A stretch of 42,443 bases of DNA from a virus: IMG/VR virus record IMGVR_UViG_3300031774_000046, positions 1 through 42,443 of that record, one strand, 5' to 3'. A program made the translations under genes and the position numbers. Of this stretch, positions 1,597 to 42,443 are shown piece by piece. Below the pieces are notes generated by a model that was not told where the DNA came from, did not search any database, and worked only from the letters and a program-made list of their open reading frames with translations. Position 1 is the first letter of the stretch, and every line of letters starts with the position of its first letter.

Positions 1597-1661
1597 CTCA
1601 ATCTTACAAAGCTAATATACGAAAAATATATTAAAGCTCCAAGGCATTTTTGAATTATTTT
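1597..1661. repeat. 65-bp promoter repeat, copy 1 (partner 22084-22148)
   Basis: By eye about 61 of 65 positions match 22084-22148. The shared block contains the whole early promoter and the end of the gene upstream of it. Differences cluster in the 20-nt spacer. It looks like a duplicated promoter cassette. Confidence 0.85.
1612..1643 (-). promoter_or_regulatory. Early promoter, Bacteroidetes type (CTTG-N20-TATATTAG)
   Basis: On the minus strand CTTG (1643-1640) is followed after exactly 20 nt by TATATTAG (1619-1612), about 40 nt before the DUF262/HNH start codon. The same arrangement recurs at four other sites in the window. It resembles the Bacteroidetes sigma-A consensus TTTG...TAnnTTTG. 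Confidence 0.7.
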
Positions 1662-2898
1662 TCAAAAATCCAAATTGGTTCTGCGAAAGTTTTGTCTTTA
1701 GTTTCTTCGGATAGTTTCAATACCTCTTCAGAGTATTGTTTTTCATTTGATTCGGTACTTTTTACTGTACCTGCTCCACCACTATTAGGTCTCTTGGCCA
1801 TTTCCATTCCTATTGCTCCTCTGTATTTTAACCCTTTAGATGTTAGAAAATCTCCCATTGGATTGGTAATCTCTTTCCATGTTTTACCACCTTTACCTGC
1901 AGTATAAACATCTGATATGTTTATTGCAATCAATCCACCCTTCTTAACTGTTGGAATAATTTTATCTAATGCTTTATGTAAGAAGTTTTTATTCCACCCA
2001 TCTATATCTTTATATCTTATCCAACTTTGAGTATCATCATGTGAGTATCTCTCTACGTTAAAATAAGGAGGTGATGTGAATACTAAATCAAAATAATCAT
2101 TATACTCACTATAATCAAAATCTTCTGCAGGTGATTCATAAAATGTTGTTTTGGTTGGGTTCTCAAAGAAAGATGTATGTTTAGTATAGAAATCTCTTTG
2201 TTCTTCATATATAGGATGATTCTCTTTTCTAGGGTCTAAACCTACATAGTGTTCAATAGTTTCTGAAGCAAAGGCTCCACTTAACCTATCGCCCCAGCCC
2301 ATACTGAAGTCAAGTATTTTCTTACTACCAAAATACTCTGTTATAGATTTAGTAATGTTTGGTTTATGCTGGGAGGCTATATACTTACGAAGTGAAATCA
2401 TTAACCTTAATTCCTTTTTACCAATCTGGTCTAGTTTTAACGAATAGGCTGCACCCATAAGAGATTTCATAAACGCAGGTGTTTCCCAAGTCCTTTTTGG
2501 ACCTGGATAACCACTAGAACATATAGACCATCTATTTGCCTCTTGGTGTTTGTTACTAGATAAATTACCTACATTATACCTCTTGAAATATAGAGGAGTA
2601 CCATCAAAGGTAAGGGGATACTTTGTCTCTGTTGCCTGTCTCATGAACCATTCACCTTCTTTCAACATTTCATTCCAGCGTATTCCCTTTAATTTGCCGT
2701 AATCCTTCACAACATCTGACCATTCATATTTATCTGTTGCATAAGGTAGAGGCCAAGTAGCAGCAAGTTCAGCAAGAGATTCTTTAACTACATCTTGTTC
2801 GTACTTACCCTTGATTAGTTCCCACTCTTTATTTTCTATGAGAAAGTAATCACAGTTAGGATTATTACTCTTTGTATATTTTTCTAATTCTTTTATCA

Positions 2899-2899
<1 letters not shown>
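1655..2899 (-). CDS. DNA methyltransferase with SPPY motif
   Basis: A 414-residue SAM-dependent methyltransferase. The SAM-binding motif I is ILDFSMGWGDRLSG at about 195-208, followed by the acidic loop YVGLDPR. The catalytic motif IV is TSPPYF at about 275-280, the signature of amino-methyltransferases that modify N4-cytosine or N6-adenine in DNA. Motif I precedes motif IV, and about 190 residues of unassigned N-terminal sequence lie in front. The start codon overlaps the groEL stop as TAATG, which implies translational coupling. It is the last gene of a six-gene operon that includes possible nucleotide-modification enzymes and is followed by a DUF262/HNH nuclease gene. DNA is the likely substrate, but target base and site cannot be read from sequence. 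Confidence 0.75.
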
Positions 2900-4527
<1,628 letters not shown>

Positions 4528-5370
4528 TTATTTTAAATTTAATGATTTTTTGTATGAACCACCGATGTTCCAAAATAATATTTTACCATCTAGTGATTCA
4601 ATGTTTTGTTCTAACCAATACCACATCTTTTTATCCCAAAATTCGTTACAATCAAATGGAACTGAATAATCTTCCATAAAATCATTGAACTCAAATGGTG
4701 ATTTATAGATATTGATATTGTTTAAATCTCCTGCCTTGTTTTCATTAAGAATCTTTTGAGTAGATTCCAATGATGACATTGTGATAGTGTGAACTTTTCT
4801 TTTGTTGTTAAGTAAATCTTTCCAATCTTTATATTGTAAGAATTCTTTAATCAAACCAGAAGCAGTTACACCACTACCGATAGATACAACAAGATGGTCA
4901 AAATCTTGTTCTTCTAATACTTGTTTCATTCTATCCCTCATATGGTTTACATATGCTGGATGATTGAATGCATATGGTAATTGTTGCCAACCATTCTTTT
5001 TTGCGATACCACCTAATTTATTTTCAAGCAGTTTCATCATATTTGGTTTCATTGGATTTAAAGTTGCACCATTACCTTTGATGATTTCTAATATCTCTGG
5101 TGGATATGATTTAGAATCAGGATAAGATGAGATAAACTCAATACCATAATCTTTACACATCTTAGATAACGTCCAACCTGTCCAACTTCCATATACTGAA
5201 AGATGTGTAAGTGGTTTTGATTTATCAATATAATCAGATTCTATAATCTTTCTTATACCTTCAATTTTAGCCCATCGTGGATAGTTTACACCATCCCCAA
5301 CTAAATCATCTCTCTTGACATGAACTGTCTTTCCTTTTACTTTATATTCTTCTATTGGTGTTAGAACCAT
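4528..5370 (-). CDS. PLP-dependent enzyme, fold type II (TrpB/ACC-deaminase-like)
   Basis: A 280-residue protein with the outline of tryptophan-synthase-beta-fold PLP enzymes. The N-terminus reads TPIEEY, then VHVKRDDL, then PRWAKIEGIRK, where Lys35 is the candidate Schiff-base lysine. A glycine-rich phosphate-binding loop SIGSGVTASG lies at about 163-172. The pattern KRDDL...K.EG.RK recalls ACC deaminase and D-cysteine desulfhydrase, and phage PLP enzymes of similar build. The start overlaps the end of the PP-loop gene by 10 nt. In hypermodifying phages PLP enzymes rework amino acids attached to 5-hydroxymethyl pyrimidines, which would fit the neighbours, but those are not shown to be orthologous and the substrate is unknown. 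Confidence 0.7.
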   Translation of the reverse strand: MVLTPIEEYKVKGKTVHVKRDDLVGDGVNYPRWAKIEGIRKIIESDYIDKSKPLTHLSVYGSWTGWTLSKMCKDYGIEFISSYPDSKSYPPEILEIIKGNGATLNPMKPNMMKLLENKLGGIAKKNGWQQLPYAFNHPAYVNHMRDRMKQVLEEQDFDHLVVSIGSGVTASGLIKEFLQYKDWKDLLNNKRKVHTITMSSLESTQKILNENKAGDLNNINIYKSPFEFNDFMEDYSVPFDCNEFWDKKMWYWLEQNIESLDGKILFWNIGGSYKKSLNLK

Positions 5371-6287
5371 TCGTGTTTTATTTCTTTTTTTATTTTATTG
5401 TACTCAGATATAAGTTGTTTCTTTTCAACTCCAAATATTTCACAATGAAGTGTATTTATATCTCCCTTTTCTTTTTTGGTATGAAAGTTAGATTTGTTTT
5501 TTGCATTACCAAATCTCTCAAACTCGTCTTTAAATAATACATCAGTTACAAACCACTTTTTCTTTTCTTTCATTTTATCATCTTCAAATTTGAAATTAGT
5601 TTGTTCATAATTTACATTCTGAAAATGTTTGTAGATACTTTCTGTTTGTAATGGTGTATCTAAAGTAACTCCATATGAGTTGATGTATTTTCTAATTGAT
5701 ACATGATTGTGAACATTACCATTAAAGTTTTTATCTTCATAACACATTCTACGATGGTCGTTATAGTGTTTATCAAAATCTTCTCTCGTAACAACACCCT
5801 TTAACATATCTCTGTATTTTATACTAAGTTTTGCGTTTGTTTCATATATAACATCTTCATATAATCCAGCAACCAAATGTTTAGTTGAGATATGTTGTAA
5901 CATATACCAATATGCATAACAACATTGAATATCTATTTTTCTTGATATTCCAATCCTATCGATACCATCTTTTATTATTTCAGAAGCTTCTTTCTTACCT
6001 ATCTTAGGTATGTTTACAATTTCTAATGGAATACCATAACCCTTTGCAATCTTACGAGAGTAAATTAAATCATTTGTATCGTAATCTTCTACTTGAAATG
6101 TAAGTAACTGAGATGGTTTCTTTCCTAATTCCATCAAACCATACAATAACATAGATGAATCTATACCAGCAGAAAATGATAACGAGTAATCTTCTGGTAT
6201 CTCTGATAATCTATCTAATAAAAGTTTTTTAAAATCCCATGCCCATTTTGGGTTATCATCGAATTTGAATGATTCGTGTACTTTCAT
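5361..6287 (-). CDS. PP-loop ATP pyrophosphatase (asparagine synthetase C-domain-like)
   Basis: A 308-residue protein with the PP-loop motif SLSFSAGIDSS at about 35-45, equivalent to the SGGxDS AMP-forming site of asparagine synthetase, QueC and TilS families. Nearby LTFQVEDYDTNDLIYSRKIA and the later HLVAGLYEDVIYETN segment match the asparagine-synthetase C-domain layout, but the usual GxGxDE is replaced by AGLYED. There is no N-terminal glutaminase domain, so it would need free ammonia or another amine donor. The reaction is presumably adenylation of a carboxyl or carbonyl followed by amine attack. The gene overlaps its neighbours on both sides (4 nt with the TS-like gene, 10 nt with the PLP gene), which indicates joint function. 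Substrate unknown; a role in base modification is inferred from context. Confidence 0.7.
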   Translation of the reverse strand: MKVHESFKFDDNPKWAWDFKKLLLDRLSEIPEDYSLSFSAGIDSSMLLYGLMELGKKPSQLLTFQVEDYDTNDLIYSRKIAKGYGIPLEIVNIPKIGKKEASEIIKDGIDRIGISRKIDIQCCYAYWYMLQHISTKHLVAGLYEDVIYETNAKLSIKYRDMLKGVVTREDFDKHYNDHRRMCYEDKNFNGNVHNHVSIRKYINSYGVTLDTPLQTESIYKHFQNVNYEQTNFKFEDDKMKEKKKWFVTDVLFKDEFERFGNAKNKSNFHTKKEKGDINTLHCEIFGVEKKQLISEYNKIKKEIKHEWF

Positions 6288-6994
6288 TTACCTAATACTT
6301 CTAATAACTTGATTGTTTTCTTTTTTTCATTATCCATATCACCGATATGACATGAACATGCAAGTGTAGTTACTTTTCCTAATTCTAATCCACTTTGTTT
6401 TGCAAGGAAGTGTCCCATCTCTGTTAGTGCAGTGTAATCTGCGTAACCACTTTTAGATACTCTATTTGAACGAAGAATTGATGTAAGGTATAATTTACCA
6501 TTTCTTGGTTTTAAATCAATCATACACATACAAGGTTGTGAATATGGATTCCTTGCATCTTTCGTAGGGTCAAAGATAATTAGTTCACATCTTTTTACTG
6601 CCTGTCCTCTACTTAGAATCTTGATTACATTTTCAACTTGGTTGAATTCTCCTTTCCAAGATACCATTCTACCCCAATAGGATTGATGCCAATGGTCTTT
6701 AATGTATTTATAATCCAATCCCTCTTCTTCTTCAAAGAATGGATTATCTGATTTCTTTTCTTGTGGTTCTAAGAAGGTAACTGTTTTGGCAAAATCAATT
6801 CTATCATCACCCATCACTTCTCTGAAGTGTCCATCAAACCAATCATCTGATTTAAATTCTGTGATTTCAGTTACTACATTGAGTTCTTCTGTAAGATTAC
6901 CAACCTTAACACCATGTTCTAATAAATGTTTTGATACTTTCACCCAGGCATCTCCTGGCGATGTTGCTTCTATAACTGTCATATATGTGTCCAA
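6284..6994 (-). CDS. Thymidylate synthase / pyrimidine hydroxymethylase family protein
   Basis: A 236-residue divergent member of the thymidylate synthase superfamily. It has YWGRMVSW followed by NQVENVIKIL (the YGxxW and DQ-ENVI region of ThyA), QPCMCMIDL with candidate nucleophile Cys155, NGKLYLTSILRSNR with the phosphate-binding Arg-Ser at about 175-176, and GLELGKVTTLACSCHIGD corresponding to the ThyA SxxxHxY region. The stretch after RS is about three residues shorter than ThyA RSxDxxLGxPFN, and the substrate-specifying Asn is not evident. It might make dTMP, or a 5-hydroxymethyl-dUMP or -dCMP precursor. Its stop overlaps the PP-loop start (ATGA-type overlap), which links the two functions. 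Fold assignment is good; reaction uncertain. Confidence 0.7.
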   Translation of the reverse strand: MDTYMTVIEATSPGDAWVKVSKHLLEHGVKVGNLTEELNVVTEITEFKSDDWFDGHFREVMGDDRIDFAKTVTFLEPQEKKSDNPFFEEEEGLDYKYIKDHWHQSYWGRMVSWKGEFNQVENVIKILSRGQAVKRCELIIFDPTKDARNPYSQPCMCMIDLKPRNGKLYLTSILRSNRVSKSGYADYTALTEMGHFLAKQSGLELGKVTTLACSCHIGDMDNEKKKTIKLLEVLGK

Positions 6995-7235: not shown

Positions 7236-7496
7236 CTATAAATTTTCATTAATTGTATTTGAGTAGGCCATTTCTGATTGTACACCTACTAATCTATTTA
7301 CCTCAACTCCATCCTTTTCAACAATTACTGTTGGTACTGAACGTACATGATATTGTTGTGCAATTTGATATTGTGAATCAATATCAACATTTTCGAATGT
7401 TACTTGTCCAAATTTTGTTCGTACTTGTTCCATAATTGGAGTTAGAACTTTACATGGTCCGCACCATTCTGCGTAGAATTTTTTTACTGTTATCAT
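7236..7496 (-). CDS. trxA: Thioredoxin
   Basis: An 86-residue thioredoxin-fold protein with the active site EWCGPCK at about 10-16 and the cis-proline segment RSVPTVIV, both canonical. It is a short, minimal form compared with the ~105-residue bacterial protein. It follows nrdA after an 18-nt gap and has a clear Shine-Dalgarno AAGGAG ahead of the ATG. The obvious partner is the phage ribonucleotide reductase, whose C-terminal Cys pair it would re-reduce in the cytoplasm. Confidence 0.95.
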   Translation of the reverse strand: MITVKKFYAEWCGPCKVLTPIMEQVRTKFGQVTFENVDIDSQYQIAQQYHVRSVPTVIVEKDGVEVNRLVGVQSEMAYSNTINENL

Positions 7497-7514
7497 AGTT
7501 TCTCCTTAAATTAT

Positions 7515-9296
7515 TTAACCATCACATGCAACACAATCAGGGTCAACCGCTCTTGTTGCGATATCACCTCTAAGAACTGATTCAGTTCTCATATAATATA
7601 GAGTTTTGATTCCTTGTTTCCAAGCCTCCATAGTAACTTGATTAATCCACTTCGGTGATGCAATCGAAGGGAAAGCCAAATTTAACGAAACAGATTGGTC
7701 AATGTACTGTTGTCTTATACCAGCTTGTTTAACCAAATCCATTTGATTGATTTCTTTGAATGTTCTAAAGACATCCTTGACAGGGTAGATTTTTTCTCTA
7801 TCACCATTCTCTATTTCATTACAGAGAACCATTTTACCATCTAAGTAACACCACTTATCTAGTTCTTTAATATCTTGTACTGAACCACCATCTTCTAAAA
7901 TCTTATCCCAAGTATCTTTATTATTAACACCGGCTTTTCTTAGAACTTTTACTAATTCGTTGTTCTTTCTAATAAAAGTTCCTTTAGAAGTTTGTTCAGT
8001 AAATACGTTTGCAGCCCATGGTTCAATACCAGCTGATACATTACCAGCTAATTTTGAATTGGATACTGTTGGTGCAACCGCTCTAAGGTGTGTGTTTCTG
8101 AATCCACTTTCTTTACACCATAGTGGTTCACCATATTCTGTTGCCAAATCTCTTGATGCTCTTTCTGATTCAATCTTTAACTGAGAAAAAATCTTACGAG
8201 TTTCAAATTGAGCCTCCATACCTTCAAATGGAATACCATTTTGTTGTAGGTAAGTGTGCCATCCTAAAACTCCTAACCCTAATGCTCTACCCTTTTCAGC
8301 AGATGCAACAGAATGTTCGAATCCTTTCATGTTTTTAGCTTTTTGAATGAACTCAGAAAGTACTCCATCTAAGAACCAAGTTGCTGTATAAACTAAATCA
8401 GTATCTTTCCACTCATTATATCTAGCTAAGTTTACTGATGATAAACAACAAACAAATGAATGGTTCTCATCTGTATGTAAAGTGATTTCAGAACAGATGT
8501 TTGTCATGAATACTTTTAATCCATTTTTCTTATACATCTCAGGATTATTTTTATTAACATTCCCTTTGTACATGATATATGGTTCACCTGTTGCTTTTCT
8601 CTTTTGAAGTAATTTTCCCCACTTTCTTCTAGCAGTTGGTTCAGCATCTTGAAGTTTTCTCATAAACTTATCACCAACAATTGCACATTGATGTAAGTTA
8701 AGTGATTGTCTATTCACATCACCTTTTGGTTCTCTGATTTCTAACCACTCTTCGAAATCATCATGTTCTATATTGAGGTTAACTGAAGCAGCACCTCTTC
8801 TTACTGAACCTTGATTTGTAGCAAGGATTGTAGAATCGTAAATTTTAGCAAATGGTACAACACCATCACTCGTTCCATTTCCTGCAATTACAGAACCTGC
8901 TGGTCTGATTTGGTTGATTCCAATACCAACTCCACCACCATGTTTTGCAAGTAACATTAGTTCTAAGTTTTTAGAACCAATATCATAAATCGAATCGGCA
9001 ACATCAATACCAAAACAAGAAATAGGTAATCCCCTATCAGTGCCAGTATTTGAAAGAACTGGTGTTGCTAAATTCAACCAACCTTTCCAAATATAGTCAA
9101 AAAACTTAGTTGCCATTTGTGGTTTACCCAATCTTTGAGCAACTCTTGTTGCAACTCTCCAATAGGCATCTTTAGGTTTTTCACCAGGTAATAGATATCC
9201 TTTAGATATTGTTTTTACATATATTTCAGTATTACCCCATGAAGGAAAATCAACATCGATTTCCCAACCTAAATCTTCTCCGTAGTTTTTTGCCAT
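7515..9296 (-). CDS. nrdA: Ribonucleoside-diphosphate reductase alpha subunit, class Ia
   Basis: A 593-residue NrdA that reduces ribonucleotides to deoxyribonucleotides. It carries the active-site cysteines in LPISCFG and FVCCLSSVNL, the catalytic N-x-C-x-E as NICSEI, the radical-transfer tyrosine pair in KTLYYMRTES, and a C-terminal redox pair DPDCVACDG. The protein starts directly in the catalytic region; the ATP-cone activity-control domain is absent, as is common in phage enzymes, so feedback inhibition by dATP is probably lost. The stop of the SET-domain gene lies just before the start. Works with NrdB (10299-11294) and the thioredoxin encoded downstream. Confidence 0.96.
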   Translation of the reverse strand: MAKNYGEDLGWEIDVDFPSWGNTEIYVKTISKGYLLPGEKPKDAYWRVATRVAQRLGKPQMATKFFDYIWKGWLNLATPVLSNTGTDRGLPISCFGIDVADSIYDIGSKNLELMLLAKHGGGVGIGINQIRPAGSVIAGNGTSDGVVPFAKIYDSTILATNQGSVRRGAASVNLNIEHDDFEEWLEIREPKGDVNRQSLNLHQCAIVGDKFMRKLQDAEPTARRKWGKLLQKRKATGEPYIMYKGNVNKNNPEMYKKNGLKVFMTNICSEITLHTDENHSFVCCLSSVNLARYNEWKDTDLVYTATWFLDGVLSEFIQKAKNMKGFEHSVASAEKGRALGLGVLGWHTYLQQNGIPFEGMEAQFETRKIFSQLKIESERASRDLATEYGEPLWCKESGFRNTHLRAVAPTVSNSKLAGNVSAGIEPWAANVFTEQTSKGTFIRKNNELVKVLRKAGVNNKDTWDKILEDGGSVQDIKELDKWCYLDGKMVLCNEIENGDREKIYPVKDVFRTFKEINQMDLVKQAGIRQQYIDQSVSLNLAFPSIASPKWINQVTMEAWKQGIKTLYYMRTESVLRGDIATRAVDPDCVACDG

Positions 9297-9297
9297 T

Positions 9298-9717
9298 TTA
9301 TATTAATTTTATTTGTGAAGAGTTTCCATAGTTACCGAAAATTTCTTCATCTTTATTTATTTCTTTTATTGCTATACCCGTTTTACTATCAACGTTTCCT
9401 TCTTCAAATTGTGTATTTATTAAACACAATGGCTCTGAAAATAAAAAATTACAATCCTTCGTTAATTTGAATCTAAGTTCAGAATTATCGTTAACTATAT
9501 TATTTCCATAAGAACGAAGTATGTATGATAATACTTCTTTAGGTAACTGTTTGGATTCTCCAAACTTTATTTTATACCAACCAGTTTCTCCTTTCCATAT
9601 TGGAAAAACTTGTTCTCCTTTTTTTATATCAACCAATGCAAATAATCCAACTCCATGAACTTTGCTGGTTCTTTGATAACTTTTAACTGAAGTATTTAAA
9701 TAATCAAATGGGTTCAT
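9298..9717 (-). CDS. SET-domain protein (putative lysine methyltransferase)
   Basis: A 139-residue protein with SET-domain landmarks in the right order: KVHGVGLFALVDIKKGEQVF at about 19-38 (GxG SAM-binding segment), LINTQFEEGNV at about 99-109 in the place of the usual NHSxxPN, and EINKDEEIFGNYG at about 119-131, the GEEi..dYG terminal motif. The catalytic tyrosine would be that of GNYG. The usual NH pair is degraded, so activity is uncertain. It overlaps the methyltransferase gene by 14 nt and is one base from nrdA. SET proteins methylate lysines. In chlamydiae one acts on the H1-like Hc1; an H1-like gene lies in this same operon (11311-11481). The substrate here is inference. Confidence 0.7.
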   Translation of the reverse strand: MNPFDYLNTSVKSYQRTSKVHGVGLFALVDIKKGEQVFPIWKGETGWYKIKFGESKQLPKEVLSYILRSYGNNIVNDNSELRFKLTKDCNFLFSEPLCLINTQFEEGNVDSKTGIAIKEINKDEEIFGNYGNSSQIKLI

Positions 9718-10294
9718 GTATTACATTTTTTTGAAATACACCATCTATAAAATAACTCCAATTACAATTATGTGTTTGTTCAATTACTTTTGGATAGTGT
9801 TCTCTATGAGGAGAATCTATCTTGAATTGAAAAGAATGTAAATCATTAGTATCTCTTAATACAAAGTAACTAAAAATTGATAATACACAATTTTCATTTG
9901 AGATTAATTTTGCGTAATCTTCAAACTTAGAATAGTTAGAGTCATCATAAGTATCCATAAAGATACCATCAAACTTAACATCTAAAGATGGGATTACATC
10001 TATCCAATCTCCAAAATATAAATGAACATCATCTTTACCTTCAGCCCATTTCTGTGCCTCCTTAAAGATTTGTGGATTTGATTCTATACAATGATAATTA
10101 CCAACCTTATTATAGATTGCATTAGCACTATATCCTAATCCGAATCCAATATCTAATACTTTTCCACCATTTTGTGTAACTATATTAGAATACAATTCCA
10201 TCAATTCTTTGGATACTACATCCATAACAATTTTAGAATCATCATCCGAATACGATATCCTCGTATCTGTTATTGTAACCTTTTTGTTTTTCAA
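9704..10294 (-). CDS. Class I methyltransferase, guanidinoacetate/RMT2-like
   Basis: A SAM-dependent methyltransferase of about 196 residues. It has KVLDIGFGLGYSANAIY (motif I), then HCIESNPQIFKEAQKWA, GDWIDVIPSL and FDGIFMDTYDD. The combination GFG...E.N...GdW.DV.p.l...fDGI..DTy is the pattern of guanidinoacetate N-methyltransferase and the arginine methyltransferase RMT2. I choose TTG at 10294, four bases after the nrdB stop. ATG codons at 10363 and 10330 would force 65- or 32-nt overlaps into nrdB and add residues not seen in the family. It overlaps the SET gene by 14 nt. The substrate may be a guanidino group on a small molecule or protein; unknown. Confidence 0.7.
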   Translation of the reverse strand: MKNKKVTITDTRISYSDDDSKIVMDVVSKELMELYSNIVTQNGGKVLDIGFGLGYSANAIYNKVGNYHCIESNPQIFKEAQKWAEGKDDVHLYFGDWIDVIPSLDVKFDGIFMDTYDDSNYSKFEDYAKLISNENCVLSIFSYFVLRDTNDLHSFQFKIDSPHREHYPKVIEQTHNCNWSYFIDGVFQKNVIHEPI

Positions 10295-10298
10295 ATTT

Positions 10299-11294
10299 TT
10301 AAAATAAATCGTCCCAATCCTCACCCTCATTTGCTTTAGAATAATCAGTAGGTCTAATAGCAAAGAAATCTGTGTGAGTATGTCCGCCTGTAAGGTGATA
10401 GAACCATTCTAGTTTCTGTGATTTCTTTTTATCATATTCATGAATACCATCATATCCAAGTTCAACTAGTTTTGTATTGGTTCTTTCTTTAATAAATTCT
10501 TTTAAATCATCTGCTTCAAGATTTTCTAAATCACCCATCTCAAACATCTTATCGATGAATCGAGATTCTAATTCAATAATCAATTTAGATGCTTCTTCAA
10601 TTGATTCTCTACATTGTTCTAGTAATTCAGGATATTCTTCACACATATGTCTAAAGAGTTGACAACCCATACGAGAATGAAGAGATTCATCTCTTACACT
10701 CCACTTCATTTGTTGTCCTATTCCTTTGAGTTTATTTCTCATTTGGAATGAATAAAGAACAGCAAAGGAAGAGTAAAGTGAAACACCTTCAGCAAATGCT
10801 GAAAATATTGCTAAACTTCTACCTACTTCCTGTCTTGCTTTCTCATTTGTTTGTAAATCAGTATGTTTCCATTCTGCTGAAGTTTGTGTAAGTAATTCGA
10901 ACTTCTCTGCAACTGCAGGTTCGTGTAGAAACGCTGAGAAATCATCCAACCCTAAAGTTTCATTTAAATATGAATATGCTGTTGCATGAATAGTTTCTTG
11001 TGAACCAAACATCATAGCCATCTGTCTTATCTCATGTTTAGGAAACCAATCAGTAACCATATTAGTCCAATAATCAGAAACTGCACATTCAGTTTGTGCA
11101 AATCCTAATAGGATGTTACCAACTAAATTTTTCTCTGCAGGAGTTAAAGTTTCATTCCAATCTTTAACATCCATTTGCATTGGTATCTCAGTATGTAACC
11201 AAAATGCTTGTGCTTGTTTTAACCAACCTTCGTTATAATATATTGGGTACTCGAACGGCTTGAAAGGGATTCTTTCGGTGAATAATTTGCTCAT
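10299..11294 (-). CDS. nrdB: Ribonucleoside-diphosphate reductase beta subunit, class Ia
   Basis: A 331-residue R2 protein that houses the di-iron tyrosyl radical. Metal-ligand segments are visible: QTECAVSDYW, then SQETIHATAYS (E-x-x-H-x-x-x-Y, where the Tyr fits the radical site Y122 of E. coli), AFAEGVSLYS, and VRDESLHSRMG (E-x-x-H). The C-terminus ends in acidic residues and Phe (EDWDDLF), typical of the tail that docks onto NrdA. The gene lies 16 nt after the H1-like gene. Two methyltransferase-like genes separate it from nrdA, an uncommon arrangement. Confidence 0.95.
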   Translation of the reverse strand: MSKLFTERIPFKPFEYPIYYNEGWLKQAQAFWLHTEIPMQMDVKDWNETLTPAEKNLVGNILLGFAQTECAVSDYWTNMVTDWFPKHEIRQMAMMFGSQETIHATAYSYLNETLGLDDFSAFLHEPAVAEKFELLTQTSAEWKHTDLQTNEKARQEVGRSLAIFSAFAEGVSLYSSFAVLYSFQMRNKLKGIGQQMKWSVRDESLHSRMGCQLFRHMCEEYPELLEQCRESIEEASKLIIELESRFIDKMFEMGDLENLEADDLKEFIKERTNTKLVELGYDGIHEYDKKKSQKLEWFYHLTGGHTHTDFFAIRPTDYSKANEGEDWDDLF

Positions 11295-16241: not shown

Positions 16242-16275
16242 GGCCATTTTACGAAAACGTAAGGTCTATTTGGCC
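16242..16275 (-). terminator. Nested hairpin after the Nmad1-like gene, possible terminator
   Basis: TTACG/CGTAA with an AAAA loop (16249-16262) lies inside an outer GGCCA/TGGCC pair (16242-16246 with 16271-16275). The gene's stop codon is in the outer stem region. There is no T-run after it on the minus strand, so termination is uncertain. It separates the Nmad1-like gene from the gp32 promoter. Confidence 0.4.
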
Positions 16276-16613
16276 CATTTTTTTCTTTGTACAATTTGTG
16301 ATATTACACCATATACAGACAAATCTTCGTAGGTATCTTGGATGTTCTCCCCTACCTCATCTGGTTGTCCTTTTACCACTAATTGTAATAATCTTTGAAT
16401 TTTATCATTCTTCCTAAACCAAAGACCTGTAAGTGCCACTTTGATATCATCTTCAGTTTCTAAAGATGTACCAACTGAGATATTACCAGGTCCATAATTC
16501 CTCTGTTTTTTACAGAAGGTTTCATACATTTCATCGAGAATGTTTCTGAATTCTTGTGTTGTTTGTGGGTACGTTTCTTCGCAGTACTCCACTGCAGTCT
16601 GTTCTTTGTTCAT
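16266..16613 (-). CDS. DUF1599 / nucleotide modification associated domain 1 protein
   Basis: A 115-residue helical protein. MYETFCKKQRNYGPGNIS at about 29-46, LWFRKNDKIQRLLQL and GENIQDTYEDLSVYGVISQ follow the pattern of DUF1599 (Nmad1): a K..dYG..n segment, a [RK]..DKi.Rl segment and an E.i.DT..DL.nY segment. The carboxylates resemble those of MazG-like nucleotide pyrophosphohydrolases. Nmad1 is known mainly by association with phage nucleotide-modification genes, which fits the possible modification operon at 4528-6994. It has its own early promoter (16634-16665). The biochemical role is unproven. Confidence 0.65.
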   Translation of the reverse strand: MNKEQTAVEYCEETYPQTTQEFRNILDEMYETFCKKQRNYGPGNISVGTSLETEDDIKVALTGLWFRKNDKIQRLLQLVVKGQPDEVGENIQDTYEDLSVYGVISQIVQRKKWAK

Positions 16614-22149: not shown

Positions 22150-22902
22150 CTAAATTTTTGCAGAACCTACATCGATTGGTTCTCTCTTCATATGGTTACC
22201 TGATGCAAAGTTTGCACCTTGTTTAATATAACCAGTTAAGAATGCCCTTCTGAATCGTTTTGATGTATTTGGTTCAGAACCATGAATAACATTAGAATGT
22301 AGTAAGGCAACCTGTCCTTTTCTTAGATACCCATCAATGTGTGGAAAATTATGGTCCTCTGGTAATACACAAGGTTTACCCCTTTCGTTTTTCCAATTCT
22401 TAGGATTTGAACCTACCCTTTCTTCATCTACTTCGATAGGTAATTTTCCTAATCTATGTGAACCTTCTAAGTACCATACAGAACCATTATTGGGGTCATG
22501 ATTATCAAATGCAATCGAAACGTTGATTATTTCATTTGATTTACATTGTGTATAAAATATATTTTGATGTTGGTCTCTTCCTAATTGACCTGGTGGTTTA
22601 AAGTATGCCCAAGTTTGTACACCAAATATTTTAGAATCCATAAGAAACTCACATGCCTCAATGATTTTAGGATGTTTCATTAAATTAGTAAGTTGTTCTG
22701 ATTCTTTATGTGGATACATATACGGGTCATACTCACCCCATTGTCCTTCTGTATCTTTTTCTTGTCTTTGAATTCTGATTCGTTCTAACTCCTCAGCGTA
22801 AGAATCTACTTCACTGTCTGTTAGTAGATTTAATATAGATACTCCCTTGTATCTCCAGTCAAATTGTAATTGTTGTTTTTCTTCCTGTGATAAGTAACTC
22901 AT
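22150..22902 (-). CDS. PhyH-family 2-oxoglutarate/Fe(II) dioxygenase
   Basis: A 250-residue phytanoyl-CoA dioxygenase-like protein. The iron-site segment is GRDQHQNIFYT; the family normally has H-x-D, and Asn stands in the Asp position here. Then come NVSIAFDNHDPNNGSVWYLE with GSHRLG, and LLHSNVIHGSEPNTSKRFRR, providing the distal His and the 2-oxoglutarate-binding Arg. These enzymes hydroxylate small molecules or peptides and occur in many marine phages with unknown substrates. A motif TATAAATA on the minus strand at 22928-22921, in the T4 orientation, lies 18 nt upstream of the start. It precedes the block of small genes and follows the SGNH gene by 30 nt. Confidence 0.8.
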   Translation of the reverse strand: MSYLSQEEKQQLQFDWRYKGVSILNLLTDSEVDSYAEELERIRIQRQEKDTEGQWGEYDPYMYPHKESEQLTNLMKHPKIIEACEFLMDSKIFGVQTWAYFKPPGQLGRDQHQNIFYTQCKSNEIINVSIAFDNHDPNNGSVWYLEGSHRLGKLPIEVDEERVGSNPKNWKNERGKPCVLPEDHNFPHIDGYLRKGQVALLHSNVIHGSEPNTSKRFRRAFLTGYIKQGANFASGNHMKREPIDVGSAKI

Positions 22903-35801: not shown

Positions 35802-37100
35802 TTAAGCTGTAAATGTTAAAGTACTTGAATAAGCCCCTGCCAATCCACTTTTTATAGCTCTAACCCTAGCATAGTATGTATTACCAGCAACCAAACTATA
35901 TCCTTGTTGCAATTCAGCTGAGTTTTGATTCCATTCTGTTTCATTTGCCTCAGTACTACTAAAGTTACTTGCGGTAGATACTTGGAAATCATAAGCAGTT
36001 GCACCACTATAAGCTGTCCAACTAAGTGTTGGACTATTATAAGCCAACCCAGTCACTGCACTTGGTGCGGCTATATCTGTATGTGAATTACCACCTTTGT
36101 TGTGAGTTACATATCCATTTACTAAATAGGTATCTACTTCTTCTACATTTATTGATACGATTTCTACACTTTCCTTTACTATTTCAATTTTATCTACATT
36201 TACCTCAACTAAACCATCTTTTATTCCACCTGCTGCTTTAATCAATCTATCTCCTACTTGTAATCTAAACATTTCTTTGAATCTATAAATTGAATCAGCT
36301 TTATCCCAAACTAACATTGGGTGTTCAGATGTTGCAGTTATTTCACCATCATTAATATTATAATATGATGATGCGAATGAATAAATAATATCTTTTACCT
36401 TTACTTTTTCGAATTCACCTAGTACATCTCTTGCATTCCATTCAAAGAAATCTTCATCTGAATCTAGGTTTAGGTTATTTGGATTATATCCTACTAACTC
36501 ATCTCCTTCTTCTAAATCCCCAACTTCTACAATACTACCATCCCATTTTGTGATTGGTGAATCAGCAGTTAAACATAAAGCAGATGCGTTGTTATCATAT
36601 GAATCAACAGAATAAACAGTTTTATCTCTATTAGAACCAAAGTTACTCATATGACCGTTGAAGGTATCATCAAATACAACCCTTACTGTGTGTGTTGCAA
36701 CTGTTTGTAATTCAGTTTGTGTTCCCGCGTTTGACATTTCACTAGCAGCAAATACTGCAGTTTCACCAGCGTTTTCACTTACACTCAAGTTACTTCCAGC
36801 AGGTACACTCCATTTAAAGTTGGTGGGTTGGTCTGCTATTCCATCTGTAAATCTTGAACCAGTACCACTAAAGTTTAATCTATATGTTTCTGATGTATTT
36901 TCTACTACATATGTAAAACCAGAGATACCATCAACAGAATCTCCAGCAAAATCTGAAAGTTGTCTTGTTACACCATCTAATGTTGCATCAATACTTGTTT
37001 GAATGGCATTTAATGAAACACCACTACCAGTTGATGTTGTTCTAACTGCTGTTCCTAATTGTTTTAAACTTAAAGTATCTCCTGATGATAATGATGGCAT
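35802..37100 (-). CDS. Structural protein with Hint (intein/BIL-like) and FN3 domains
   Basis: A 432-residue protein with three parts. Residues 1-175 are strand-rich, beginning SSGDTLSLKQLGTAVRT, as in phage tail-fibre or neck proteins. Residues about 176-334 are a Hint domain: Cys176 in ALCLTADSPI (block A), EITATSEHPMLVW (block B, T-x-x-H), EVDTYLVNGYVTHN (blocks F/G) with terminal His333-Asn334. The residue after Asn is Lys, not Cys/Ser/Thr, so normal splicing is not expected; this is typical of bacterial-intein-like domains that cleave instead. Residues about 344-432 are a fibronectin type III domain (APSAVTGLAYNSPTLSWTAY...YYARVRAI). No homing endonuclease insert. A virion surface protein processed by self-cleavage is likely. 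Confidence 0.8.
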   Translation of the reverse strand: MPSLSSGDTLSLKQLGTAVRTTSTGSGVSLNAIQTSIDATLDGVTRQLSDFAGDSVDGISGFTYVVENTSETYRLNFSGTGSRFTDGIADQPTNFKWSVPAGSNLSVSENAGETAVFAASEMSNAGTQTELQTVATHTVRVVFDDTFNGHMSNFGSNRDKTVYSVDSYDNNASALCLTADSPITKWDGSIVEVGDLEEGDELVGYNPNNLNLDSDEDFFEWNARDVLGEFEKVKVKDIIYSFASSYYNINDGEITATSEHPMLVWDKADSIYRFKEMFRLQVGDRLIKAAGGIKDGLVEVNVDKIEIVKESVEIVSINVEEVDTYLVNGYVTHNKGGNSHTDIAAPSAVTGLAYNSPTLSWTAYSGATAYDFQVSTASNFSSTEANETEWNQNSAELQQGYSLVAGNTYYARVRAIKSGLAGAYSSTLTFTA

Positions 37101-38111: not shown

Positions 38112-39062
38112 TTATTTGATTTTTGATTCTAACTCTTCTACTCTTTTAAGAAGTTCTTTGTTTGATTCAATGAGTAGGGCTACTATCTTTTCGTATTTTA
38201 CCGCTTTATATCCACTTTCTCTTGTTTCTACAATCTCTGGTAATACTTTTTCTATTTCTTGTGCAATTACACCAACATCGTGTTGGCCTTTGAATACTTC
38301 GTGTTTATTATTCCAATCAAAAGTATATCCACCGATTTGTTTTAGTTTTTCGTTTGGATTTTCGATTGGTGTAACATTATCTTTATATCTTTCATCTGAA
38401 GAAGCGTATGCAACAACATCTTCACCAACATTAAGTGTTTTTACTATACCAACACCACCATCTACAACTAATGCCCCAGTCGTTTTACTTGTTGATTGAG
38501 TTGTATTATCTACATCTAATCTACCTGCAAGTGTATTAGCACCTGTACCAGTTTGAGTAATCTTACCACCAAAATCGATATCATCTGTGAATGTTGCTGA
38601 ACCTCCATTAGACATATCTAAGGTAAGGGCATCTATGGTTACAGTATTATCAACTCCTCTGAATATAATATCTTTATCATTCGTTGATGATTTAATTATG
38701 AAATTTGAGTTATCTCTTTTAAATCTACCATATTCAATACCATTATCTTTAAGAAGTACATCTGCATCATCGGCATCTAATGTAATATCTCCACCTACAT
38801 CTAAAATAAAATCACCAGCATCTGAAATTGTAGAACCATCAATAGTAATATCATCTACTGTTAAATTTCCTATAATAGAAATTGAACCAGTTGTAATGGA
38901 ATCGGTAGTTACTATATGTTGTATGGTAGCAGAACCATCGTTCTTTTCAAAGAATATTCTACCATCGTATGTGTTTATTGCTATTTCGCCTAAGGCAAGT
39001 TGTGAAGTAGAGGGTACTTTACCTTCGGTTGAAGAACGTTTTAATTTTATTGTCTGTGCCAT
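38112..39062 (-). CDS. Tail fibre protein with C-terminal S74 chaperone domain
   Basis: A 316-residue fibre. The N-terminus, AQTIKLKRSSTEGKVPSTSQ then LALGEIAINTYDGRIFFEK, is the short N-terminal module used by many fibres of marine phages. Strand-rich repeats follow (GNLTVDDITIDGSTISDAGD). From about 221, SSDERYKDNVTPIENP starts a Peptidase_S74 intramolecular chaperone, with GGYTFDWN and DVGVIAQEIEKVLPEIV, ending in a coiled coil. S74 domains fold fibre trimers and then cut themselves off, using the Ser/Lys of SSDERYK. It shares the S74 type with the adjacent 1,100-residue fibre. Confidence 0.9.
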   Translation of the reverse strand: MAQTIKLKRSSTEGKVPSTSQLALGEIAINTYDGRIFFEKNDGSATIQHIVTTDSITTGSISIIGNLTVDDITIDGSTISDAGDFILDVGGDITLDADDADVLLKDNGIEYGRFKRDNSNFIIKSSTNDKDIIFRGVDNTVTIDALTLDMSNGGSATFTDDIDFGGKITQTGTGANTLAGRLDVDNTTQSTSKTTGALVVDGGVGIVKTLNVGEDVVAYASSDERYKDNVTPIENPNEKLKQIGGYTFDWNNKHEVFKGQHDVGVIAQEIEKVLPEIVETRESGYKAVKYEKIVALLIESNKELLKRVEELESKIK

Positions 39063-39074
39063 TTAACTAAAATT

Positions 39075-42000
39075 CTATTTAGATTTTAGTTCCTCGATTT
39101 CTTTTTTCAATTCTTTAATTGATTCAATCAGTAAAGGAACAATTTTGTCATATTTTACTGCAAGGTAACCATTATCCCTTGTATCTACAAGTTCTGGCAT
39201 TACTTCTTGAATTTCTTGAGCAATTACCCCATAATCCTTACCTTTATAAATATTCTGTTTCTCTTCATTCCAATCAAAAGTGTTACCACTTATTTGAGAA
39301 ACTTTATCTAAAGCCCCTTCGATTGGTTGAATGTTATCTTTTAATCTTTTATCAGATGAGATGTATGCAACAATATCTCCCGTTGCCCCAACATCACCCG
39401 TTACTTTTAATTCGTATGTTGCATCACTTGCTCCACCTACACCAACTTTAGCAAATTGTACATTATCACTTGTTGCAATTCCTTGATTAGATGAACCTAA
39501 GTAACCCCATTGAGTATTTGATATTGTTACTGAATTTATATTTGCCAATTGAGATGCTTCAGCATTACTAATAGCAACTCCATTTATAGCAATTACATTA
39601 ATATCATTAGCACTACCAGTTGCATCTCCACCGATAGTTATTTGTGATGAACCACTTACTACTCCACCAATTAGTTCAGCAGAGAGAGTATCTCCAGTTA
39701 ATATCATATTAACTTCATTAGTATCAGAAACTGCTAAATTTGTATCAGATGAAATATCAACAGAAGTTAAATATGAGGATGTTGCAGCTGCAAGTTGGTT
39801 TAATCTAGTATCTTGTAAAGCTTGTTCAGTAGTAATTGAACCTGTTTCTGTGGATAATTGATTTAATCTATCTGTTTGTGTGTTATTAGTTGTATCATTA
39901 GAAGATGTGTAGGTGTTTAATGAACTTAAAATACCTAATACTTGTGATGAACCACTAACTACTGTTTCTGCATCTAACTTAGTTTTTACTCTTGCATCTG
40001 TATAATACTTATTTGTTGCTTCAGAAACATCATCAGTATCTATTGCTGAAATATCGATTCCATCTACTGTTCCACTTAGTGTTATATTACCAACAACATG
40101 CAAATCATCTGAGAATGAGAATCTTGAATCTGAATGAACCCATGTTAAAGTTTCATTGGCACCACCAATTGTAATACCAGCACCATCAGCTGCTGCTGAA
40201 TCAGCTGCCCCACTTGCTATTAGAATATTTTTATCTGCAACATTAAGGTTAGTTACATCAAGTTCAGTTGTTGAACCTTGAACTGTTAAGTTACCAAGAA
40301 TTGTTACATTACTTGAATCTAATGCAATTGCAGTTTCAACAGATGATGTAAATGATTCTAAGTTTGTAATATCAACATTATTAGATGCAGTATATGAATT
40401 TAATGATGTATTATAAACCTCATCATCTAAATATGTTTTGTCAATTACTGTACCTTGCCAAGTACCAGTTCCAATAGTACCAACAGTTGTGATAGAACTA
40501 GCACCTGTAAATCCTGTCTTATCTGCACTTTGTAGTACTACTTGACCAGAACCACTTATTACGGTTTCAGCAGTTAATTTAGTTTTTACTCTTGCATCTG
40601 TATAATATAGATTAGAACCTTCTGATAAGTTAGAAGTACTTGAACTTGATTCATCTATAAGTTTTATCCAATTACCTCCATGTGCAAAATATCCTTTACC
40701 AGTTCCATGAACATGAGCGAACATACCATGATAAGTTGATGCGTTTGGTAAATCTCCTTCAGTAGAATAAACATTCCCAAAGAGAACTTTATTACCACCC
40801 ATATCTAAATCAGAAGCTACAACAAAATCGATTACCTGTTGTGAACCAGAGATTATACCTTGTCCTAATTTTTTAGTAAACAATGTATCTGATTCTGTTT
40901 CTGTATAATATCTTCCATCTAAATCAACAGTTGTTGCAGTTGAACTAGTTACATGACCATTAGAATCTAATGTAATTGTTAAATCTTGTATTACAGTACC
41001 ATTAGAATTATCTTGTGATATATTTGAACCTGCACTTATACTTGGATGTGAAGTTAAGTATGAACCAGTTGCTGCTGCTAGTTGATTCAATCTTGTATCT
41101 TGACCTGAATTTGTTGTATCGTTTGATGCAGTATATGAATTCAATGAAGAAATATCGGTAGCACCTGCATTGGCAGTAACTGCATTTATAAAGTGTGATG
41201 AACCAGTATTTAACGCTAAAGTTAAATCACCACTTACACCACCTCCACTTAAACCTAAACCTGCACCAACCGATGTAACATCACCACCACCAGAAGATAC
41301 GATTGCATCGTTTACTGCAGCTGCAGTTGGTACAACAGTTGTATCGTTGAAAATAGAACTTGTTACGTTGAAGAACGCAGCAGTTCCAACTGAACCAGTG
41401 AATGTTGTTAATTGGTCTACTCTACTTACAAGTGAAGAAGTTGTAGTTTCTACGTTATCTAATCTACTATCTAAAGATTGAGTTGTTAGATGTATATTTG
41501 TAAATTTATTATCTTGTGAACCTGTAAATGTTTCTACTTGGTCTAATCTACTATCAAATGATGCGGTTATTGTATCAATACCATCTATTCTAGTATCAAT
41601 TGAAGCAGTTTCTAATTGTAATCTACCTAATCTTTGGTCAAATGAAGATGTAATAGTTTCAACATTATCCAATCTACTATCCAAAGATGATGTAGTTGAT
41701 TCTAAATTAGTTAATCTACCACTAAATGAGGATGTAGTACTTTCTACATTATCTAATCTTGAATCAAGTGAAGAAGTTACACCTTCAAGTGTTGTACTTT
41801 TTGCTTCTTCAATGTCTAACCTAGAATCTAGTGAAGAAGTTACACCTTCAAGTGTTGTACTTTTCGATTCCTCACGAGTTAATCTAGTATCTAATGAAGA
41901 AGTTGTAGATTCTACATTATCCAATCTACCATCCAATGATGAAGTTGTAGATTCTATATTTGTTAATCTACCATCAAAAGATGAAGTTACTGTTTCAATA

Positions 42001-42443
42001 GTTGTACTTTTACCTTCTTCTACATCTAATCTACTATCTAAAGATGCAGTAGTTGTTTCTAAGTTACTTAATCTAATATCTGCAGATGCAGTATATAAGT
42101 GTAATCTATCTAAATCCGAACCACTTATAAATCCGAAATCAGTTATTTGTTTTGAACCACTTAATAAAGTTGGTTTACTTGTTATACTATTAAATGCAAC
42201 TGAATTTGCAGTTACACCCGTCAATCCACTACCATCTCCAACAAATCCAACTGATGAACTTACTCTTGCATCAAATAAGAAGTTTGAATCATCATGGTCC
42301 CAAATTAAAGATTTATTGGCACCATCAATTGTAATACCTGCACCATTAGCTGCCGCTGAATCAGCTGCCCCACTTGCTATTAATAGGTTTTTATCTTCAA
42401 TATTTAAGGTCTGAGTATTAAGTTGTGTTTGTGAACCTTGAAC
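39075..42443 (-). CDS. Large tail fibre with coiled-coil repeats and S74 domain, 5' end missing
   Basis: The frame is open from base 42443 to the stop at 39075 (1,122 residues), and the residues at the right edge (VQGSQTQLNTQTLNIEDKN) are mid-protein, so the N-terminus lies outside the window. From about 42100 to 41400 it has many copies of a TSSLDSRLDNVE-type unit, a trimeric coiled coil. Strand-rich modules follow, including two copies of DKN[LI]LIASGAADSAAA[ND]GAGITI 720 codons apart. The last ~100 residues are an S74 chaperone: SSDKRLKDNIQPIEG, NTFDWNEE, DYGVIAQEIQEVMPELV. This is likely the receptor-binding fibre or its distal half. A TTG at 42224 is an internal codon, not a start. Confidence 0.9.
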   Translation of the reverse strand, partial: VQGSQTQLNTQTLNIEDKNLLIASGAADSAAANGAGITIDGANKSLIWDHDDSNFLFDARVSSSVGFVGDGSGLTGVTANSVAFNSITSKPTLLSGSKQITDFGFISGSDLDRLHLYTASADIRLSNLETTTASLDSRLDVEEGKSTTIETVTSSFDGRLTNIESTTSSLDGRLDNVESTTSSLDTRLTREESKSTTLEGVTSSLDSRLDIEEAKSTTLEGVTSSLDSRLDNVESTTSSFSGRLTNLESTTSSLDSRLDNVETITSSFDQRLGRLQLETASIDTRIDGIDTITASFDSRLDQVETFTGSQDNKFTNIHLTTQSLDSRLDNVETTTSSLVSRVDQLTTFTGSVGTAAFFNVTSSIFNDTTVVPTAAAVNDAIVSSGGGDVTSVGAGLGLSGGGVSGDLTLALNTGSSHFINAVTANAGATDISSLNSYTASNDTTNSGQDTRLNQLAAATGSYLTSHPSISAGSNISQDNSNGTVIQDLTITLDSNGHVTSSTATTVDLDGRYYTETESDTLFTKKLGQGIISGSQQVIDFVVASDLDMGGNKVLFGNVYSTEGDLPNASTYHGMFAHVHGTGKGYFAHGGNWIKLIDESSSSTSNLSEGSNLYYTDARVKTKLTAETVISGSGQVVLQSADKTGFTGASSITTVGTIGTGTWQGTVIDKTYLDDEVYNTSLNSYTASNNVDITNLESFTSSVETAIALDSSNVTILGNLTVQGSTTELDVTNLNVADKNILIASGAADSAAADGAGITIGGANETLTWVHSDSRFSFSDDLHVVGNITLSGTVDGIDISAIDTDDVSEATNKYYTDARVKTKLDAETVVSGSSQVLGILSSLNTYTSSNDTTNNTQTDRLNQLSTETGSITTEQALQDTRLNQLAAATSSYLTSVDISSDTNLAVSDTNEVNMILTGDTLSAELIGGVVSGSSQITIGGDATGSANDINVIAINGVAISNAEASQLANINSVTISNTQWGYLGSSNQGIATSDNVQFAKVGVGGASDATYELKVTGDVGATGDIVAYISSDKRLKDNIQPIEGALDKVSQISGNTFDWNEEKQNIYKGKDYGVIAQEIQEVMPELVDTRDNGYLAVKYDKIVPLLIESIKELKKEIEELKSK
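40158..40238. repeat. Internal fibre module repeat, copy 1
   Basis: About 80 bases closely matching 42318-42398, offset by exactly 2160 bases. It encodes the ASGAADSAAADGAGITIGG module of the large tail fibre. Suggests module duplication or recombination within the fibre gene. Confidence 0.8.
41767..41864. repeat. 63-bp tandem repeat in fibre coiled-coil region
   Basis: A 33-34 base block beginning at 41768 recurs unchanged at 41831, an offset of 63 bases (21 codons). It encodes the TTLEGVTSS-type coiled-coil unit. The surrounding 41400-42100 carries many diverged copies. Confidence 0.75.
42318..42398. repeat. Internal fibre module repeat, copy 2
   Basis: Partner of 40158-40238; it encodes ASGAADSAAANGAGITIDG near the right edge of the window. 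Confidence 0.8.

Follow-up and report, generated by a model that had tools for sequence, protein, structure and literature searches.

A candidate cytosine-directed DNA hypermodification cassette with a thymidylate synthase-fold enzyme in uncultivated phages

The described systems closest to the locus presented here are the CmoA-CmoX-CmoY system of Synechococcus phage S-B43, in which the ligase CmoY joins glycine to 5-carboxymethylcytosine in DNA (PMC12783734), and the thymidine system of Pseudomonas phage M6 (gp49-gp58); M6-like cassettes contain a PLP-dependent enzyme (PMC9476957). Moreover, 5-hydroxy-dCMP (5-hodCMP) synthase is an enzyme of the thymidylate synthase (TS) superfamily that serves DNA modification (PMC13390438).

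Locus and comparison with described systems

The analysed DNA (the window, the whole stretch of 42,443 nucleotides of the IMG/VR record IMGVR_UViG_3300031774_000046) is 42 kb of the genome of a contractile, T4-like phage. Among isolates, the Flavobacterium phages vB_FspM_immuto are close to it in NrdA (59%) and in the tail sheath (~50% over the pieces that align). A preliminary description of the window had reported three overlapping genes for a TS-like, a PP-loop and a PLP protein, and the ORF positions and family matches confirmed this trio as three minus-strand ORFs with overlaps of 4 nt and 10 nt (Table 1). The ORF of the TS-like gene was first listed as 6284-6994, and the upstream TTG at 6994 would give a protein of 236 aa. 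Thioredoxin and NrdA beside the trio (7236..9296) form a DNA-precursor neighbourhood.

Table 1. Features of the cassette and its surroundings in the window
Feature	Position	Strand	Length (aa)	Remark
TS-fold enzyme	6284..6982	-	232	likely start ATG 6982, as in relatives
PP-loop amide ligase, AsnB superfamily, CmoY-type	5361..6287	-	308	synthetase domain only, no GATase
Fold-type II PLP enzyme	4528..5370	-	280	M6 gp52 family (phrog_7093)
SPPYF N4/N6-type DNA methyltransferase-like protein (MT)	1655..2899	-	414	homologues near TS in relatives
GroEL homologue	2899..4521	-		between PLP gene and MT gene
Thioredoxin	7236-7496	-		context
Ribonucleotide reductase NrdA	7515-9296	-		context
DUF1599/Nmad1-like small protein	16266..16613	-		PF07659 match below cut-off

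Several other minus-strand features were recorded in the window. A ParB-like/HNH-type protein lies at the window end (242-1570), its final motif being HNH nuclease-like by eye. Between nrdA and nrdB (9298-10363), a SET-domain protein (PF00856, 1.7e-5) overlaps a class I methyltransferase, in close relatives only. A PhyH-type 2-oxoglutarate dioxygenase (22150-22902; PF05721, 2.3e-21) is situated away from the cassette. By eye, the tail-region protein at 35802-37100 has an internal Hint/intein-like stretch from CLTADSPI to GYVTHNKG, and the two fibre proteins at 38112-39062 and 39075-42224 have similar S74-chaperone-like C-termini (SDERYKDNVTPIE and SDKRLKDNIQPIE).

The known toolkits were searched for in 13 large relatives (113-376 kb; records possibly incomplete). 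The 5-hmdU DNA kinase (HMUDK, PF18723) was not found in these relatives, with the M6 control positive and the window and its relatives being fragments or of uncertain completeness. Likewise, the amino acid:DNA transferase (ADDT, PF18724) was not found in the 13 relatives, again with a positive M6 control, which agrees with the earlier remark that the known DNA kinase and transferase are missing. The C5-carboxymethyltransferase CmoX (PF00145) had no match in the 13 relatives and was found in the control genomes, and the Cx-SAM synthase CmoA was found neither in the window nor in the 13 relatives, with the S-B43 positive control scoring. T4-type dNMP kinase (DNMK) and dCTPase, signs of nucleotide-pool replacement, were not found in the relatives' records, so a modified dNTP pool is unsupported.

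The cassette resembles CmoA-CmoX-CmoY in its homologous ligase (phrog_26038; hhalign 3e-13) and in the choice between a GATase-less and a GATase-bearing ligase, which occurs in both systems. It differs in that its large relatives, as searched, lack CmoX and CmoA and carry a TS-fold enzyme instead, with PLP/radical-SAM tailoring in addition. With M6 it shares a gp52 homologue aligning end to end, as well as TS-fold, radical-SAM and PLP enzymes; unlike M6, it has no recognised 5-hmdU kinase or amino acid:DNA transferase, and its TS-like site is of the cytosine-reading type and lacks the folate Asp. Each part of the cassette has a known relative, and each of the two known hypermodification systems has a defining feature that the cassette does not show. 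The combination was not found in the literature searched, which omits several key papers.

Conservation of the cassette among relatives

IMG/VR was scanned with the three window proteins, and then with growing alignments, as queries, reaching homologues down to ~43% identity for TS and 52% for AsnB. HMM-annotated neighbourhoods were counted once per distinct TS sequence if the flanks reached 1.5 kb or more upstream and 3.5 kb or more downstream, which gave 44 loci. An AsnB-superfamily ligase lies beside TS in 43 of them (34 with the glutaminase domain and nine without), and all 44 contain a PLP and/or a radical-SAM enzyme (PLP in 39, radical-SAM in six). The SPPYF MT is present in 35/44 loci, at most 4.5 kb from TS and often overlapping the TS start. 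One locus (L117) has no ligase nearby, which counts against the explanation preferred below. With the gene set retained in 43-44 of the 44 distinct flanked loci, the trio is not a chance neighbourhood, and the survey of its co-occurrence proposed in the preliminary description revealed a recurrent, co-inherited cassette.

The gene orders seen were MT-TS-AsnB-PLP, TS-CmoY-like-PLP-MT and MT-TS-CmoY-like-rSAM, together with AsnB-rSAM-TS in L112 and TS-AsnB-rSAM-PLP in L156. On the TS tree, the ligase type (GATase + AsnB form vs short form) switches at least four times, always inside the AsnB superfamily, and the tailoring type changes at least five times. In most distant loci, neither nrd nor DNA polymerase genes were recognised in the flanks, and the cassette therefore looks like a unit rather than simple synteny.

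The scan of 84,980 prokaryotic species genomes returned a single TS homologue, located in a copy of the cassette on a MAG contig (Ignavibacteria, L202:2342-7972), where MT, TS, ligase and radical-SAM genes stand in a row with a ParB-like protein in front (by eye). The TS family is essentially phage-only. A ParB-domain protein is frequent beside CmoX in the literature.

In L049 (8001-10115), TS and AsnB form a single 710-aa frame without the GATase Cys, either a fusion or an assembly error. The apparent TS fusion in L116 was rejected: a GIY-YIG endonuclease reading frame lies in front, and there is no functional domain fusion.

Family assignments of the cassette proteins

The TS-like protein matches the Pfam family Thymidylat_synt above the cut-off (7e-7) and the methanogen-type TS model TIGR03283 at 8e-22, under the cut-off of that model; this supports its earlier description as a divergent member of the thymidylate synthase family. 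Residues C151, R171, S172, D182 and H212, as well as Lys177, are invariant in 58/58 distinct TS-like sequences, Cys151 occupying the nucleophile position. Asp182 occupies the alignment column of the thymidylate synthase Asn and of the cytosine-reading Asp of T4 gp42 and MilA, and the base-reading residue is Asp, not the dUMP-type Asn, in all 58 sequences. The pterin-binding Asp of the RSxD motif is retained in T4 gp42, M6 gp58, nattely, Montesquieu and ThyA; it is Arg174 in the window protein and Arg or Ala in the family, among the loci printed. The neighbouring folate-contact positions, which we take to be those of E. coli thymidylate synthase, are also altered, the Tyr of HxY is lost, and the proteins share the family-specific motif SK[SA]GYAD.

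Several relatives have a canonical ThyA in addition, encoded separately, so the TS-like protein is not the thymidylate synthase of the phage; it has neither the Asn at the base-reading position nor the folate Asp by which ThyA is recognised. In the TS tree with AfhB, T4 gp42, M6 gp58 and ThyA, the cassette family stayed largely together and the outside rows had no firm placement; the ThyA rows L192 and L193 of this tree and alignment are wrong reading frames and are to be disregarded. The 276-kb relative L192 (G001) also has, by eye, an S-adenosylmethionine synthetase-like frame beside its canonical ThyA, which could feed methyltransferases.

The best solved relative of the TS-like protein is AfhB from phage HY126, a 5-hydroxy-dCMP synthase (hmmsearch 3.3e-9; Z 20.6 over 196 residues at 2.5 A), and the CMP hydroxymethylase MilA is the second-best, tied with it (Z 20.3, E 2.1e-7). 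According to their PDB titles, the AfhB entries (9iqu, 9iqc) are a dCMP hydroxylase and, with FAD, a riboflavin-dependent monooxygenase, 9iqc being the homologous entry solved with FAD. The two proteins have in common the TS fold, the catalytic Cys and the cytosine-type Asp, and both have lost the pterin Asp (AfhB has RSQN at that motif) and the tyrosine of His-x-Tyr. AfhB differs in having neither the SK[SA]GYAD motif nor the adjoining amide ligase and PLP/radical-SAM enzymes, and its identity of ~19%, with the folate-using MilA within 1 Z unit, weighs against fixing the cofactor. MilA and T4 gp42 also have the TS fold and the cytosine-reading Asp, but have not lost the folate Asp (RAND, RSND). 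The comparison with dUMP/dCMP hydroxymethylases suggested earlier thus held for the fold, the Cys and the cytosine-type Asp, and failed for the folate Asp and the dUMP-type Asn; the 5-hydroxymethyl-dU proposed in the preliminary description is not supported, given the cytosine-type Asp in 58/58 sequences and the lost folate-contact residues.

The cytosine-type Asp, the lost pterin Asp and the likeness to AfhB suggest that C5 of cytosine is functionalised without folate. The TS-fold enzyme probably works without methylene-tetrahydrofolate, and by analogy with AfhB our best guess for its reaction is 5-hydroxylation. There is a real chance that the first step is a new TS-fold chemistry.

The Pfam and NCBIfam matches of the window PP-loop protein are weak. 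The phrog_26038 profile matches it at 1e-15 and the proven amide ligase CmoY at 2e-30, S-B43 CmoY aligns with it in tblastn at 2e-4, and the short ligase form gave hhalign values of 3e-13 against CmoY and 2e-10 against the AsnB form. By sequence, the window ligase groups with CmoY. Its PP-loop motif is SAGIDSS (SGGIDSS in L008), and the best folds for its predicted model (pLDDT 90) are carbapenam synthetase and asparagine synthetase, so that the asparagine-synthetase-like PP-loop protein noticed earlier can be placed in the AsnB superfamily, CmoY-type, with a fold supported by the model. The N-terminal Ntn glutaminase with Cys2 is absent from the window ligase and present in most relatives, which have the GATase + PP-loop architecture of asparagine synthetase B; this GATase form scores as a true asparagine synthetase by the NCBIfam cut-off and matches E. 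coli AsnB at 8e-39. The window ligase differs from asparagine synthetase B in lacking the GATase and in belonging to the CmoY group.

Phage relatives of both ligase forms occupy base-modification clusters, in which the only proven chemistry is an amide on a base-borne carboxylate. Staphylococcus phage F1 gp67, a short-form relative, is flanked by a methyltransferase and a C5 methyltransferase; TurkishDelight gp124, which among isolate phages is the closest to the GATase form, has a CmoX homologue (37%) on one side and a CmoA homologue on the other; and Achromobacter phage Motura has an AsnB-form relative inside a 7-deazaguanine cluster. Ligases of the AsnB/CmoY type use a carboxylate to form an amide, which argues against the adenylate-activated amination of a modified pyrimidine put forward in the preliminary description. 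Its view that the PP-loop enzyme replaces the kinase and transferase survives in part: these are missing, but the ligase, given its carboxylate chemistry, is no simple stand-in.

Two apparent cassettes in isolates are annotated only generically: ParB-ParB-CmoX-AsnB-CmoA in Streptomyces phage TurkishDelight (gp121-125, L199:6127-11155) and CmoA-CmoY-CmoX in Staphylococcus phage vB-SscS-F1 (gp66-68, L003:7305-9823).

The window PLP enzyme, correctly called as such from the beginning, matches phrog_7093 at 4.7e-23 and PALP below the cut-off (3.7e-5). The hhalign of its profile with M6 gp52 runs end to end (3.6e-28) and includes the C-terminal W-rich motif PFxCNxFxDxKxWxWL...FWNIG, common to the window family and gp52. 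Lys35 is the presumed Schiff-base lysine, and the corresponding motif occurs in 61/61 distinct PLP sequences. The 63 INPHARED matches, mostly M6/YuA-like, comprise 51 Pseudomonas phages, the rest being phages of Bordetella, Rhizobium, Sphaerotilus and Stenotrophomonas. M6 gp52 is reported, in work of Lee et al. from 2022, to decarboxylate an amino acid that is linked to the base; a gp52-like decarboxylase would remove, not supply, the carboxylate needed by the ligase, which counts against our preferred explanation. The radical-SAM protein of L112, considered as a homologue of M6 gp53, was rejected, as it showed no BLASTP similarity. PDB sequence searches with MT and with the PLP profile gave no match.

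In the window, MT is parted from the trio by groEL. This full GroEL homologue has counterparts close to the cassette in a part of the relatives only and is missing from that position in most, and we therefore do not regard it as a cassette member. PADLOC defence models gave only generic type II MTase matches, for MT. The Nmad1-like gene, previously cited as support, no longer serves as such: its PF07659 match (E 0.01) is under the cut-off, and the gene lies ~10 kb from the cassette and is present in 7/13 large relatives.

Proposed pathway and alternatives

The earlier idea of DNA modification is strengthened by the co-inheritance of the cassette and by its nearest characterised relatives, which are nucleotide- or DNA-modification enzymes; a role in DNA-base modification of some kind is very likely. 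The reading that we prefer, and consider reasonably probable, is a cytosine-directed DNA hypermodification cassette that forms a C5 handle, amidates a carboxylate and tailors the arm. What the computation shows is which genes make up the set and how well it is kept, to which families they belong, which residues have changed and that the known toolkits are absent; from this we infer the substrate, the cofactor and four steps, although any particular order of these steps is doubtful.

In step 1, Cys151 would activate C6 and Asp182 would read the amino group of cytosine, so that the TS-fold enzyme installs a C5 handle on dCMP or on cytosine in DNA, possibly by flavin-type C5 hydroxylation, as the closest solved relative suggests. 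In step 2, the handle would gain a carboxylate, for which the candidates are the TS-fold enzyme, with basic residues now in the former folate pocket; the SPPYF MT, which may use SAM or a SAM-derived arm; and the PLP enzyme, which may attach an amino acid, or the radical-SAM enzyme. In step 3, as judged from CmoY, the AsnB/CmoY-type ligase would adenylate the carboxylate and form an amide, the amine being ammonia derived from glutamine in relatives with a GATase and perhaps an amino acid such as glycine for the short form of the window. In step 4, as the M6 system suggests, the PLP enzyme of the M6 gp52 type would reshape the amino-acid-like arm, a task that would fall to a radical-SAM enzyme in other relatives.

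The standard hydroxymethyl route, in which a folate-dependent dCMP (or dUMP) hydroxymethylase supplies a hydroxyl that the ligase and PLP enzyme elaborate, would suit the rank of MilA among the solved relatives and the cytosine-type Asp as in T4 gp42. However, the Asp that binds pterin in T4 gp42, M6 gp58, nattely and ThyA is Arg/Ala here, the adjacent folate contacts are altered, and an AsnB-family ligase requires a carboxylate, not a hydroxyl, and we consider this route improbable. A variant of the M6/ViI thymidine (5-hmdU) pathway, with the ligase in place of kinase and transferase, draws on the M6-gp52-type PLP enzyme and the alternating radical-SAM enzymes; it is opposed by the cytosine-type Asp182 in 58/58 sequences, by HMUDK and ADDT not being found in the 13 large relatives where M6 scores, and by the lack of similarity between the L112 radical-SAM protein and gp53, which makes it highly unlikely.

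The preliminary description had also considered a free-metabolite pathway, i.e., that the ligase is asparagine synthetase-like and that the product of the trio in infection is a small molecule or an amino acid. The strong asparagine synthetase matches of the GATase form speak for it, but the ligase slot is repeatedly taken by the GATase-less CmoY-type, the PLP enzyme belongs to an M6 DNA-modification family, AsnB relatives in phages are located within DNA-modification clusters and the TS family is essentially phage-only; the one homologue in 84,980 species genomes, sitting in the same cassette, weakens this pathway further, and we regard it as very improbable.

For the cytosine-directed reading, a more specific and tentative version is that a folate-independent TS-fold enzyme puts a carboxylate-bearing C5 arm on cytosine, directly or indirectly, and that the ligase and the PLP/radical-SAM enzymes would turn it into new hypermodified cytosines, making a third modular toolkit beside those of 5-hmdU kinase/transferase and of carboxymethylcytosine. 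The carboxylate-arm role has so far been filled only by CmoA and CmoX. The cassette brings together modules of two phage DNA chemistries that were discovered separately, amide ligation as in CmoY and PLP tailoring as in M6, and adds them to a third starting enzyme, of TS fold and without the folate contacts; it offers a concrete, testable case of a TS-fold cofactor switch. If this is true, DNA hypermodification would be combinatorial across chemistries, and widespread uncultivated phages related to the Flavobacterium phage immuto would have cytosine derivatives that are not yet known, which would matter for restriction, type IV defence and sequencing.
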